Assembly: GCF_010211765.1 (NCBI RefSeq)
Contig: NZ_PDWO01000001.1
Location: 434,001-498,000, forward strand
Origin: Pseudoxanthomonas kaohsiungensis
GTDB taxonomy: Bacteria > Pseudomonadota > Gammaproteobacteria > Xanthomonadales > Xanthomonadaceae
DNA: 64,000 bases
Direction of reading: 5' to 3'
In this document: positions 44,185 through 48,538 of the stretch, piece by piece
Layout: every line of letters begins with the position of its first letter
Numbering within the stretch: the stretch's first letter is position 1
Translations under genes and position numbers: made by a program
Notes under the pieces: model-generated
Database searches by the model: none
Seen by the model: the letters and a program-made list of their open reading frames with translations, nothing else
Told to the model about the DNA's origin: nothing

Positions 44185-47100
44185 TCAGGGCACAGCGACG
44201 CGCACGCGTGCACCGGGCCGGGCTATGCGCAGCTCGCCGTCGCGCCACAGCGCCGGCTCGCCGTCGATGGTGGTCGCTCCCGGCGTGCCCGGGTACGGCC
44301 AGGGCAGCACCAGCCCGCCCGGCGGCAGGCCTGCGTCGGCGGCCACGTCCAGCTGCAACTGCCCATCGATACGCCGCAGCGAGTAGTCCAGTCGCCCGTG
44401 CGGCGTGTACAGGCCTTCGATCGCGACGCCCTCGCCGTCCAGCCAGTCCAGCGGCACGCCGGCGGCCAGCACCAGGCTGTCGTCGCGTTCGCGGGTATTG
44501 GCGAACATGTCCAGCGCCGAGCGCAGGAAGTCCGAAGCCACCCACGCATGCGGCAGGTCGCCGACGAAGAACGGCTTACGCGGCGTGCGCGAGACCACTT
44601 CGGCCCACTGGTTCCAGTCGGCCGGCGCGCGATCCGTGAAGAAGTACTCCGTCGCCTCCCAGGCACGCTCGCGCCAGCCCAGGCGCACGAACGCGGCCAC
44701 GTTGCGCCATTCGTACGGGGTGTAGTCCTTCCATTCGCGCTGGCCGTCGCGGCGCTGGACGAACTCGCGCCAGTAGCGCTCGAAGGTGTTCTCCAGCAGG
44801 TCGCGCGGCAGCCAGTCCTGCTCCCCGCCCGGTGCCAGCGCGATCGTGGTCGAGGTCGGGTCGAAGTCGCCCAGTTCGGCCGCGCCGGGCAGGTAGTCGA
44901 TGCCGTGGCGGCGGGTCGCCGCGCGCAGCGAGGCCGCCAGGTCCGCGCGGAACTGGTCGCGCGCCCGGGCCATCCGCCGCGCGTCCTCGTCCTTGCCCAG
45001 CGCCCGCGCGATCTCCACCGCGTCCTTGTAACCGCGCAAGGCCCAGAAGTTGTCCCAGTACGAATGCATCGGCTTGGCCGAGTAGCCCTCGTGGCTGATC
45101 GACGCCGGCATCATCCCGTAGAACGCCGGATCCAGCGCCCGGTTCGCCGCGGTACGCTCGCTGGCGCGCAATTGCTCCATGTAGCCGAACGCGCCGGCCA
45201 CGTGCGGCCACATCTTCTCCAGGAAGGCGCGATCGCCGGTGTAGCGCCAGTATTCGGCGATGTTGAAGATCAACTCGCCATGGCTGTCGTTTTCCGGCAC
45301 CGGGTCGCTGCCGCGGTCGTCGACGCAGCATGGCACCTTGCCGTTGTCGAACTGGTACGGCGCGTACCACTCCAGGTACTCGCGCACCACCTCGGGCCGG
45401 CCCAGGCGCAGCAGTCCTTCTGAAATCATCGCCCCGTCGCGGATCCAGCTGCGCGAATACGAGCGCGTGCCCGGCTGCAGGCGCGGACCGACCCTCGAGA
45501 CCAGCATGTGCGCCAGCGCGGTATGCACCGTGTCGGCGAACGCCTGGCCCTGCGGCGGCAGGCGCAGGCGCACCTGGCCGAGCAGGTCCTGCCATTGCGC
45601 CTGCGCGGCCTGCTCGGCCGCGGCCAGGTCGAACCCCTCCGGTATCCGTGCCGGCCCGTCCAGCGGCGCCACCAGCGCGATATCACGCGTTTCACCCGGC
45701 GCCAGGCGCACGCGATACAACAACATGCCCGAGGCCAGTCCGGTCGGATCGACGACCGAACGCGTTGCGGGGACATCGCCCCCCGCCAGGCGCATCACCT
45801 CGAGCCCGGCATCGAATGGCGTGGCGAATGCCGCGTCCGGTTCGGTGGTGGCGAACACCCGTGGCCTGCCGTCCACGACGACCGCGCTTCCTTCCAGCGC
45901 GAGCTGTTCGATCCGGCTCACCCCACCCACGGTGTTGAGGAACTGGCTGGGCGGATTGACCTGCAGCGGCCGCACGGCCAACGCCAGGGTGGCCTCGCGC
46001 GGTCGGTCGCTGGGGTTCTCCAGTCGATAGCGCATTACCAGCTGCGAATTCCCCGGCGTGCCTTGGGCGAAGGCGAGCACATCCAGCAACGGCGCTGGCG
46101 CATCGCCGGATGCGTCCTTGGCGGTCCAGCTCACGTTCGGCATCGGAATGCCGCCCGGACGCAAGCCCTGCCCGGTGCGCACATCGGCCCAGCTGCGCAA
46201 CTGGCCATCCTCGAGCAGGAACGGCTCGACGCTGAAACCAGCGCGCGATACCTCGACCGCGCCGTCCTCGCCGATCAGGCCCTGCTCGTGGCCGCCATCG
46301 ATGCCGATGATGGTCCAGTACGGCTGCTCGCCACTGAAGCCCCGCGGCAACCAGCCGCGCGGCAGGTCGGCCGCCACGGCCTTGATGAAATCGTTCGGGT
46401 GGGCGGAGAACGACAGCGGCTGCACGTGCGCCTCGGCCAGCGCATAACCTCCACCATCGAAGTCCAGCGCGATCCGACGCGACTCGGCTTCAGGCAGGGC
46501 CAGCCAGTCGGTGACGCCGCGCCCCTCGTCGACGCGCCGCACTTCGCGCCAGCCCTCGCGCGGATCGTCCAGCAGCACGGCATAACGCGTCGGCCGCCGG
46601 TCGGCAGCCGACCAGTGCAGGCGCAGGCCGCCGAACTCGCGCACCTGGCCCAGGTCCAGCACCAGGCGCTGCCTGCCGCTGGCCCGCCAGGCGGTGGACA
46701 GGTCGCCGTCTATCGCCAGCGCCGCGGTATCGGGCGAAGCGGTGGCTTCCGCCGCCATGGCCCGGGGTGGCGCCGGGGGGTCCACCGGCAGCGGTTCGAA
46801 GGTCAGCCCGTCGAAGCACACCGAGCCGGCACCGCCCGCGTTGTTGTAGATGGTGAACTCGATCTTCGCGCTGCGGCGCAGGACCTTGTCCGCGTCCGGA
46901 CCCCAGGCCTTGGAGATGTGCCGCTGGCGATATCGCACCTCGCTCCAGTCGCGCGGGAACTCGTACTTCGGCCGGTTCACCCACCACACGTTGTCGCCGC
47001 TGGCGTCGACCAGCTTGAACTGCAGGTCGTTGGCCGGCGAATCGCCGCGCAGCTGGAAGGCGAAACGGAAATTCTCCGGATACTCCAGCGGCAGGTCGCG

Positions 47101-47388
47101 CTGGATGCCGGCGTAGCCCGACACCCCGTTGAAGTCGTAGTCCAGGCACAGCGCCTTGCCTGCGACGCCCTCGACCTGGCGGATGCTGCCGCTGACCTGG
47201 TTGGAGACGACCACGCGCCAGGGCGAGGCGTCCTCGAAATCATCGAGCACGCGAGGTTGGGCCATTGCCACCATCGGCGCCTGGGAAGCCAAGGCCAATG
47301 CAAAAGCCCCTGCCTGGCGGAGGATGCGGCTTGCCGGCCTCTGGCGAAACACGCCGTGAATCCATCCATGGAGGCTCGGGCGCGCCAT
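44185..47388 (-). CDS. Large modular secreted glycosidase with F5/8-type C domain
   Basis: 1067 aa from the proposed ATG at 47388; GTG at 47352 is the main alternative. Order: signal peptide ending AMA-QP; a CBM-like jelly roll (about 50-190, DDFEDASPW...VCFDGLTFEPL); an F5/8-type C domain (about 200-310, LVLDLGQVREFGGLRLHWS); a beta-sandwich (about 320-590); and an alpha/alpha barrel (about 600-960) with YSRSWIRDGAMISEGL and ENDSHGELIFNIAEYW, typical of GH15/GH63-like glucosidases. Probably a periplasmic or secreted exo-glucosidase; substrate unproven. Both possible start codons lie inside repeat B1. It ends the minus-strand sugar block. Confidence 0.85.
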   Translation of the reverse strand: MARPSLHGWIHGVFRQRPASRILRQAGAFALALASQAPMVAMAQPRVLDDFEDASPWRVVVSNQVSGSIRQVEGVAGKALCLDYDFNGVSGYAGIQRDLPLEYPENFRFAFQLRGDSPANDLQFKLVDASGDNVWWVNRPKYEFPRDWSEVRYRQRHISKAWGPDADKVLRRSAKIEFTIYNNAGGAGSVCFDGLTFEPLPVDPPAPPRAMAAEATASPDTAALAIDGDLSTAWRASGRQRLVLDLGQVREFGGLRLHWSAADRRPTRYAVLLDDPREGWREVRRVDEGRGVTDWLALPEAESRRIALDFDGGGYALAEAHVQPLSFSAHPNDFIKAVAADLPRGWLPRGFSGEQPYWTIIGIDGGHEQGLIGEDGAVEVSRAGFSVEPFLLEDGQLRSWADVRTGQGLRPGGIPMPNVSWTAKDASGDAPAPLLDVLAFAQGTPGNSQLVMRYRLENPSDRPREATLALAVRPLQVNPPSQFLNTVGGVSRIEQLALEGSAVVVDGRPRVFATTEPDAAFATPFDAGLEVMRLAGGDVPATRSVVDPTGLASGMLLYRVRLAPGETRDIALVAPLDGPARIPEGFDLAAAEQAAQAQWQDLLGQVRLRLPPQGQAFADTVHTALAHMLVSRVGPRLQPGTRSYSRSWIRDGAMISEGLLRLGRPEVVREYLEWYAPYQFDNGKVPCCVDDRGSDPVPENDSHGELIFNIAEYWRYTGDRAFLEKMWPHVAGAFGYMEQLRASERTAANRALDPAFYGMMPASISHEGYSAKPMHSYWDNFWALRGYKDAVEIARALGKDEDARRMARARDQFRADLAASLRAATRRHGIDYLPGAAELGDFDPTSTTIALAPGGEQDWLPRDLLENTFERYWREFVQRRDGQREWKDYTPYEWRNVAAFVRLGWRERAWEATEYFFTDRAPADWNQWAEVVSRTPRKPFFVGDLPHAWVASDFLRSALDMFANTRERDDSLVLAAGVPLDWLDGEGVAIEGLYTPHGRLDYSLRRIDGQLQLDVAADAGLPPGGLVLPWPYPGTPGATTIDGEPALWRDGELRIARPGARVRVAVP

Positions 47389-47428
47389 CCATGGCGCGCA
47401 CGGTTTCGCCAGAGGCCGGCAAGCCGCA
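47325..47428 (-). repeat. Variable-arm palindromic element B1
   Basis: Arms 47325-47350 and 47403-47428 are perfect inverted repeats over 26 bp. The 52-nt core between them, read on the minus strand, aligns without gaps to the core of B2 with 43 of 52 identities. The core contains its own 9-bp hairpin GCGCGCCAT/ATGGCGCGC (47380-47399) and repeated ATGGATGG. The B1 arms bear no resemblance to those of B2. The element overlaps the 5' end of the glycosidase gene. Confidence 0.85.
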
Positions 47429-47701
47429 CCTGCACATTCCTGCCGCGACCTGAAGGAAGCAGCAGGACCACGAATGACGGAAGCGCTGTTGCCCTCCACA
47501 TCCGGTCGCGATGACATCGGGAGGCCCGGCGCGATGCGCCGGGCCGGGACCGTTGGCGTCATGGATGGCGCCATCGAGCCCCCATGGATGGGTTCATGGC
47601 GTGTCCCGGCCCGGTGCATCGCGTCGGGCCCATGACCGCGCCGGCAAGCCAGCGCGTCACCCCGACCACTCGACAGTCCATCGAAAAGCATCAGACCCAC
47701 C
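47389..47701. other. Intergenic region malG-like gene to glycosidase, repeat-filled
   Basis: 313 bp. It holds part of B1, all of B2, and the sequence between them (47429-47522), in which nothing else was recognised. Frames through it are repeat-derived. No clear promoter or terminator. Confidence 0.5.
47523..47630 (+). repeat. Variable-arm palindromic element B2
   Basis: Arms 47523-47550 and 47603-47630 pair over 26 of 28 positions. The left arm also folds on itself (GGCCCGGCGC/GCGCCGGGCC around GAT). The core 47551-47602 is 52 nt, the same length as in B1, and in opposite orientation to it. Confidence 0.85.
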
Positions 47702-48538
47702 TCACCCTTTGACACTACCCAGCAACAGGCCCTGGATGTAGTAGCGCTGCAGCAGCAGGAACAGCAGCAGCACCGGGATCACCGTGACCACCGCGCCGGC
47801 CATCATCATCTCCACGTCCATGATGTGCTCGCGCGACAGCGAGGCCAGCGCGACCGGCAACGTGTAGTGCTCCTGGTCGGTCAGCACGATCAGCGGCCAC
47901 ATGAAATCGTTCCACGCGGCCATGAAGGTGAAGATCGCCAGCGTCACCAGCACCGGCTTGAGCATCGGCAGCACGATCTGGAAGAAGATCCGCCACTCCC
48001 CCGCCCCGTCGATCCGTGCCGCCTCCAGCAGCTCGTCCGGGATCGAACGCGCGTATTGGCGCACCAGGAAGATGCCGAACACGCCGGCCAGCGCCGGCAC
48101 CACCACGCCGGCGTAGCTGTTGACCAGGCCGAGCTGCTTCATCAGCAGGAACAGCGGCAGCATCGCCACCTGCGCCGGGATCACCAGCGCGGCCAGCAGC
48201 AGCTGGAATACCCGTTCGCGTCCGACGAAGCGCAGCTTGGCGAACGCATAGCCGGCCAGGGTGTTGAACAGCAGGGAACCGAGGGTGATCGCCACCGACA
48301 CCAGCACGCTGTTGGCGAAGTTGCGCGCCATGCCGGTGCGCCCGAACATCTCGCGGTAGTTGTCCAGGCTCAGCGCGGATGGCAGCAAGGGGGGCGGGAA
48401 GCGGCTGGCCTCGCCAGCGGGCATGAACGATACCGACAGCATCCACAGCAGCGGCGCGATGCTGACCAGCGCCATCGCCAGCAACGCCGCGTTGACCAGC
48501 AGCCCGTGCCAACGCGACTGCCCGACCTGCGCGCTCAT
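47702..48538 (-). CDS. Sugar ABC transporter permease, MalG type
   Basis: 278 aa, six helices. The EAA loop reads PDELLEAARIDGAGEWRIFFQIVLPMLKP, the contact for the ATPase. Together with the MalF-type protein it forms an inner-membrane channel for a sugar. ATG at 48538 with GGAGG upstream; 25 bp after the malF-like gene. No ATPase gene follows; the MalK-like protein at 35.8 kb is the nearest candidate. Confidence 0.93.
   Translation of the reverse strand: MSAQVGQSRWHGLLVNAALLAMALVSIAPLLWMLSVSFMPAGEASRFPPPLLPSALSLDNYREMFGRTGMARNFANSVLVSVAITLGSLLFNTLAGYAFAKLRFVGRERVFQLLLAALVIPAQVAMLPLFLLMKQLGLVNSYAGVVVPALAGVFGIFLVRQYARSIPDELLEAARIDGAGEWRIFFQIVLPMLKPVLVTLAIFTFMAAWNDFMWPLIVLTDQEHYTLPVALASLSREHIMDVEMMMAGAVVTVIPVLLLFLLLQRYYIQGLLLGSVKG

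Follow-up and report, generated by a model that had tools for sequence, protein, structure and literature searches.

Two palindromic repeats of Pseudoxanthomonas in a dispersed YPAL/TwoAYGGAY-like family with candidate CsrA/RsmA sites on one strand

Introduction

YPAL/RU-2 is a dispersed, intergenic and palindromic repeat of Yersinia. In the parts of the literature used here, its unit is about 168 bp (or 130 bp) long and is bounded by outer inverted repeats. According to PMC2229807, YPAL is mobile, its target duplications measure 3-26 bp, and its targets lie at or next to dyad symmetry. The same review suggests that YPAL influences RNA stability. TwoAYGGAY RNA (Rfam RF01731) is composed of two hairpins with AYGGAY-type loops, closed by an outer stem. 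It is classified in Rfam clan CL00106, the clan of RsmW. According to the sections of PMC4333381 used here, TwoAYGGAY was proposed to bind CsrA, its external stem is poorly conserved and GGA hairpins generally come in pairs.

Other systems share some of these features. The CsrA/RsmA-binding sRNAs (RsmW, RsmY/Z, CsrB) have paired GGA hairpin loops of the CANGGANG type. We take CANGGANG loops to be the CsrA/RsmA motif. The REP/BIME, GTAG/CGTC and TIRYT repeats of S. maltophilia are intergenic palindromes that form inverted dimers and reach high copy numbers, as described in PMC3733652.

Here, we analyse two palindromic elements, B1 and B2, located in a stretch of 64,000 nucleotides of Pseudoxanthomonas kaohsiungensis DNA (the window). 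They are members of a dispersed palindromic family resembling YPAL and TwoAYGGAY. On balance, and with moderate confidence, we favour a reading in which the strand bearing the GGA loops is functional, most likely as an RNA with candidate CsrA/RsmA sites. The comparison joins three things that had been catalogued separately: a mobile repeat of Yersinia, an orphan RNA of Rfam and a high-copy repeat, apparently unnamed, that occurs in Stenotrophomonas and further Gammaproteobacteria. No paper linking YPAL and TwoAYGGAY was found in the open-licence literature searched.

Results

B1 and B2 are separated by a short spacer and point away from each other (Table 1). A preliminary description, made from the sequence alone, had reported 52-nt cores that align without gaps with 43/52 identities and arms that pair over 26/26 and 26/28 positions. 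Inverted-repeat search and alignment gave the same values. With up to three mismatches, the core pattern occurs twice in the window and is absent from 100 shuffles of it.

Table 1. Features of the B1/B2 locus (positions in the window)
Feature	Position	Strand	Description
Element B1	47325..47428	-	26-bp stem and 52-nt core; the GGA-loop strand is the minus strand
B1 core	47351..47402	-	Two CATGGATG hairpin loops; GGA at 47390-47388 and 47367-47365, separation 23 nt
B1 arm, 3' on GGA strand	47325..47350	-	Inverted-repeat search: 26/26 with 47403-47428 (26 nt, 100 %)
B1 arm, 5' on GGA strand	47403..47428	-	Inverted-repeat search
Spacer between outward-pointing B1 and B2	47429..47522	.	Inverted-repeat search; minus-plus order as in 73/73 pairs elsewhere
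Element B2	47523..47630	+	28-bp stem (26 Watson-Crick and 2 G.T on the GGA strand), 52-nt core
B2 core	47551..47602	+	GGA at 47563-47565 and 47586-47588, separation 23 nt
B2 5' arm	47523..47550	+	Inverted-repeat search: 28 nt, 93 % = 26/28 with 47603-47630
B2 3' arm	47603..47630	+	Inverted-repeat search

The predicted fold of each copy consists of a long stem followed by two hairpins bearing CANGGANG loops. ATGGAT forms the loop in all four hairpins of B1 and B2, and the minimum-energy folds place the second hairpin in slightly different registers. Both mismatches between the arms of B2 are G.T on the GGA strand and are paired in the predicted fold. Folded as RNA, the GGA strands have z-scores of -8.7 (B2, plus) and -9.5 (B1, minus), and none of 200 shuffles is equally stable. 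The opposite strands are also stable (z -7.7 for B2, minus; -11.3 for B1, plus). That of B1 even exceeds its GGA strand in stability (-85.2 vs -80.8 kcal/mol), which counts against our reading of the GGA strand. In the region 47150-47800 no sigma-70-like promoter or terminator was found, and this too weighs against a GGA-strand RNA. Within 160 nt, no outer or terminal inverted repeat around B1, B2 or the pair exceeded shuffles. Rfam at gathering thresholds returned only four tRNAs in the window, and a plasmid search with B2 in distant mode gave no match.

On the minus strand, the open frame of the neighbouring gene (44185-47715) passes through B1. By eye, an apparent signal peptide begins in or beside the core and arm of B1 in this frame, and the repeat may therefore have become a gene start.

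The core is homologous to that of YPAL/RU-2, on the same strand. With the YPAL/RU-2 sequence given in Table 1b of PMC2759123, the part of that paper used here, B1 matches at 52/60 positions (score 73, shuffle maximum 28) and B2 at 37/47 (score 37, shuffle maximum 27), with 500 shuffles each. B1 and B2 differ from YPAL/RU-2 in their length (104 nt and 108 nt, respectively), in having no outer inverted repeats and in that their arms are unlike each other. Relatives in genome G467 match the TwoAYGGAY model on the GGA strand with 51.5 and 55.0 bits, the cut-off being 43. At least one match above this cut-off is present in 7 of 19 element genomes. Relatives with either of the two core types exceed it; those with the core type of the window do so in G065 (46.0 bits) and G179 (44.1 bits). 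B1 and B2 themselves do not reach 43 bits: against RF01731 they are not listed in the window up to E 10, where a match weaker than that of RsmW, from the same clan, would be hidden, and they are absent among the matches up to E 0.001 in the window genome. The alignment of B1 with YPAL/RU-2 and the relatives above the TwoAYGGAY cut-off indicate that this kind of element was already known. This supersedes the statement, in the preliminary description, that neither mechanism it considered was known for such an element.

The RsmW model matches the GGA strand of both copies at chance level (E 0.18 and 3.5). B1 and B2 differ from the CsrA/RsmA-binding sRNAs in being a dispersed multi-copy repeat with a long, drifting stem and no recognisable promoter or terminator of its own. 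Ysr224 (Rfam RF02770) has weak opposite-strand matches at 47291-47406 of the window and at loci L264, L265, L268 and L270. These arise because the core, in reverse complement, is part of the Ysr224 consensus. The window matches (29.4 and 16.9 bits) are far under the cut-off of 70. This resemblance to the opposite strand counts against the GGA-strand reading, and the annotated strand of Ysr224 may be worth re-examining.

Four copies of the B1/B2-type core (up to three mismatches) are found in the window genome. A search of the core against genomes of the host family, as proposed in the preliminary description, established B1 and B2 as dispersed repeats: allowing two mismatches at most, it was detected in 33 of the 198, with a maximum of 51 copies (G044). 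A looser pattern was found in 17 of 369 genomes sampled across the class, in the host family and 15 others, with up to 70 copies (G571); the reversed pattern, used as a control, had no match in the 369 class genomes. A stem-confirmed copy was obtained in 14 of the 15 outside families, and G304 gave none. Among the 80 of 118 stretches listed, the named records are mostly Stenotrophomonas. L043, L090, L095 (label Bacillus subtilis SK7B5) and L056 (label Rickettsia endosymbiont MAG) bear Stenotrophomonas-like copies, so that these labels or assemblies are probably wrong or contaminated. The genus of the window also has a second subfamily, which belongs to the TwoAYGGAY type, has a longer linker and shares its arms between copies (L348, L349, L351-L358, L361). 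At least two copies of it are present elsewhere in the window genome.

Conservation was analysed in an alignment of 51 copies, composed of B1, B2 and 49 copies chosen for dissimilar arms from 218 fixed-length copies (88 columns, no gaps). The invariant columns are CA.G.A.G of loop 1, the AGC linker, CA.GGA.G of loop 2 and one further G. A fold model with an outer stem and two hairpins, of 7 and 3 pairs, has 95.9 % of its cells paired, and 27 of its 30 pairs vary on both sides. Over the three helices, covariation is 0.874, compared with 0.194 when shuffled and at most 0.163 when slid. Pairing of helix 1 is inflated, partly by construction, since paired arms were a condition for keeping a copy; pairing of the two inner hairpins was not a selection criterion. 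The stem is mainly required to pair, and the loops are nearly unchanged.

Departures from Watson-Crick pairing are distributed asymmetrically between the strands. In 284 unique stems, the non-Watson-Crick pairs on the GGA strand are 276 G.T, 67 A.C and 147 others. Stem extension gave G.T and A.C equal scores, and copies with a stem score below 9 were excluded from this analysis as well as from that of arm sharing. In 72 arm clusters, which are not fully independent, G.T is more frequent in 53 and A.C in 6 of the 59 that were decided (p 1.8e-10). Clusters of at least four show G.T versus A.C counts of 49 v 13 in G-C columns and 19 v 5 in A-T columns. As the bias is present in both, one-strand deamination is not the whole story. 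Selection therefore seems to act on the fold of the GGA strand. Taken alone, the bias fits RNA or single-stranded DNA alike and does not tell them apart.

This bias also bears on a purely mutational explanation, in which the arms stay paired because one is rewritten from the other by template switching during replication. The perfect 26/26 arms agree with such copying, and core inversions between paired arms show that the arms interact. Copying should be strand-neutral, yet tolerated G.T outnumbers A.C fourfold; moreover, the truncated chimaera of two arm types at L388 has unpaired arms. We therefore consider template switching a very improbable cause of the pairing. In the L388 recombinant (G234), the left and right arms are of different types, which reads as recombination within the core having unpaired the arms.

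At the site of B1 and B2 itself, 16 loci from 17 genomes of the genus were compared (the window and 15 orthologous loci). Both elements are present at four of them (window, G199, G205 and G060). G198 has B2 only, G087 has one core, whose loops are altered and whose arms pair poorly, and G200 has a relic joining both outer arms. The core is absent at nine of the 16 loci. In G205 (L154), the B1 core is inverted between its arms. B1 orthologues from four species differ in 5-11 of 24 pairs. Six comparisons gave 35 compensated changes, 3 wobbles and 9 broken pairs, which all trace to three positions mismatched in G199. Between five species, ten comparisons of B2 gave 22 compensated changes, 7 wobbles and no broken pair. 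Along with the two-sided changes and the G.T excess described above, the mostly compensated changes of orthologous arms support 'selection for structure only', one of the two explanations offered in the preliminary description.

The comparison of arms within and between copies, also suggested there, was carried out with 197 distinct elements from the first 151 loci. The median stem score is 24; the arms of 181 elements score at least 15 with each other and those of 16 fall below. By comparison, 2,000 combinations of left and right arms from different elements have a mean score of 6.5, and 6.7 % reach 15. Pairing within copies was thus confirmed. The accompanying claim, that arms are unrelated between copies, holds among the four window-genome copies, whose left arms are alike at or nearly at chance (8-12 of 24 identities, shuffle p 0.05-0.60). 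It does not hold between orthologues at one site, whose arms are mostly recognisably related, nor in several other genomes: arms are recognisably common to copies within G571, G486, G349, G365 and G334, and the second core type of the genus also has shared arms (G205). From the arms shared between copies in these other genomes, it follows that the arms belong to the element.

The second explanation of the preliminary description was an insertion of the core that would make an inverted copy of about 26 nt of the flanking DNA. A single, unduplicated arm was sought at the nine core-less orthologues of the window site, as had been proposed. None was clear: 4 of 45 comparisons exceeded the 95 % shuffle level, about 2 being expected. 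No clean pre-insertion site for B1/B2 was found among the 15 orthologous loci.

Two Stenotrophomonas sites, L072 and L035, were also compared across orthologues. For L072, 39 loci of 91 genomes were read, namely the 30 best matches to an element-bearing query and nine chosen for gaps. With L399, which was not bridged, set aside, 38 loci were readable, and 30 of these contain the core: 29 from the set of 30 best matches and the more distant L400. This filled fraction is biased, the loci being mostly best matches to a query containing the element. Several mutually diverged arm types occur among the filled loci. The eight core-less loci are L388 and seven losses (L393-L398, L401). By eye, about one arm is retained without the core at L393, L394, L396-L398 and L401, as well as at L234. 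Such sites, with about one unduplicated arm and no core, are what inverted copying would leave before insertion. In six single-arm cases, filled and empty loci differ by 83-89 nt, roughly the length of a core and an arm, which is also the prediction of the inverted-copy model.

Single-arm alleles were nevertheless rejected as pre-insertion evidence: their junctions have microhomology as in deletions, though the size fits both readings. Over both sites, microhomology of 2-4 nt is seen at 9 of 11 loss junctions, L401 and L251 being aligned too poorly to read. The loss events are fewer than the junctions, because L397 and L398 share one and L393, L394 and L396 may do so too. Several diverged arm types fill the L072 site, which makes losses the more economical reading, and one old insertion followed by later losses is simpler than many insertions at one spot. 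Together with arms that travel with the element in other genomes and the lack of a clear single arm at the nine core-less window-site orthologues, these observations make inverted copying of the flank highly unlikely. The interpretation of the preliminary description as a whole is therefore partly supported. More generally, long palindromes can lose the core and one arm, and thereby mimic a flank-copying insertion.

Neighbouring elements have a fixed relative orientation. In 118 loci with 198 elements, 73 neighbouring pairs are less than 1 kb apart, with a spacing of 73-266 nt, and 73/73 are arranged minus-then-plus, pointing outward. The 73 pairs represent 31 distinct sites. An inverted core breaks the outward rule in some orthologues (L230 in G250, L232 in G262 and L154 in G205). 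By eye, the core, or the core with its arms, is also inverted relative to orthologous or conserved flanks at L278, L282, L274 and L292. Inversions against such flanks indicate that these palindromes flip. At L235, L237, L238 and L252, other palindromic repeats interrupt the hairpin loops at CATGG/ATG or beside it, and further palindromes in element loops were seen by eye at L024, L064, L066, L077 and L088. The loops look like an insertion target, apparently hit more than once independently.

Sixty of the pairs could be assigned a gene context: 23 convergent, 32 tandem and 5 divergent, against 116, 449 and 119, respectively, in a background of 684 gene pairs. These counts rely on our own gene caller and on pairs that were not deduplicated; 13 of 73 were unclassed (12 at locus edges, one inside a gene). 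In convergent pairs, the nearest copy is read by the gene transcript on the strand without GGA loops, which counts against the GGA-strand RNA reading. Single copies in tandem contexts have no orientation bias (12 sense vs 10 antisense, not deduplicated), a further point against it. The over-representation of convergent gene pairs around paired copies, like the very stable stems, would suit a structural mRNA 3'-end or transcription element, an exonuclease block or a terminator-like structure that has no dedicated protein. Such an element would leave it unexplained that the stem drifts while the AGC linker and the GGA of each loop stay invariant or nearly so. The one-strand mismatch tolerance would have no explanation either, and we find this account improbable.

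A further alternative is a REP-like function, in which the GGA strand would be a single-stranded DNA hairpin for transposition or recombination, read by a transposase, and the outward pairs would be REPIN-like units. A one-strand DNA hairpin would also give strand asymmetry. The consistent outward pairing resembles REP dimers, and the high copy number and the core inversions between orthologues (L154, L230, L232) are also in favour of it. We nonetheless consider it unlikely, for the following reasons. A recognisable copy lies in the up to 1.5 kb read on each side of Y1_Tnp at 0 of 28 places in 17 genomes and at 0 of 10 places in 4 more, and the few relaxed matches (up to four substitutions) near Y1_Tnp were judged by eye to be due to chance. 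G060 and G106 have copies and no Y1_Tnp match. Unlike the REP and TIRYT repeats, no B1/B2-type copy examined has a Y1 transposase beside it. The loop pattern CANGGANG, presumably what CsrA reads, was also counted against a DNA hairpin.

The vehicles of the module in other genomes bear on the same question. In G334, the unit that contains it measures 180 bp, or 162 bp in one copy, and terminal repeats were found at 5 of 7 distinct places; four of these five have an exact 8-bp target duplication, and the remaining one matches at 7/8. In G486 and G571, the units are about 234 bp long, and 13 of 19 distinct places have a terminal repeat of 18 bp. Among those 13, a 9-bp target duplication is exact in 5, 8/9 in one and not found in seven. 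In G349, the three copies scored have terminal repeats of 28-33 bp. By eye, the terminal repeats of the G334, G486/G571 and G349 lineages are mutually unrelated. In G334, G486 and G571, some relatives have the terminal repeats and target duplications of MITEs, in contrast to B1, B2 and their pair, which have no terminal repeat around them. In these three genomes the module is enclosed by units whose terminal repeats are unrelated, so it is not the hairpin that serves as the transposition end.

Identity with the TIRYT/RAYT repeats was rejected, since the two repeats found beside Y1 genes of S. maltophilia D457 are unrelated in sequence. At L241 and L243 of this strain, Y1 transposase genes are flanked by a GGGGTCAGATCC hairpin and a GGGGACGGAGGGG repeat. 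These are probably the two TIR families of Di Nocera 2013. GGGGTCAGATCC-like sequences are also found in the spacers of some element pairs. By eye, a CTGTC-like stretch precedes the 5' arm in many Stenotrophomonas copies.

Discussion

The preferred reading remains that the GGA strand would act as a single strand, most likely as RNA. The predicted architecture is a long closing stem leading to a junction and to two short hairpins, each presenting a CANGGANG loop, 23 nt apart. This spacing could be bridged by one CsrA/RsmA dimer. The stem would keep both sites together and protect the transcript. Loops and linker would be fixed in sequence and the closing stem mainly in its pairing, so that its sequence could drift through compensated changes until copies appear unrelated. 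The element might then bind CsrA by titration, or place new genes under CsrA.

From this, a broader and more tentative proposal can be made, which we regard as possible. Unrelated miniature transposons across Gammaproteobacteria would carry the same candidate double CsrA-binding hairpin, as a mobile Csr module. Each insertion could put a neighbouring transcript under CsrA, and tens of copies together could titrate CsrA. The outward inverted pair would ensure one GGA-loop hairpin whichever strand is transcribed. If CsrA binds, transposition would be a way to rewire or buffer a global regulator. Independently of CsrA, the analysis provides evidence that one strand of the repeat is selected to fold.

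CsrA was found in 37/37 element-bearing genomes tried, a presence that is permissive and not discriminating because the gene is common. By eye, the csrA copy of the window genome looks canonical. Beside it, two weaker CsrA-family matches are located on one contig of this genome (G000:C77:40009 and G000:C77:5027).
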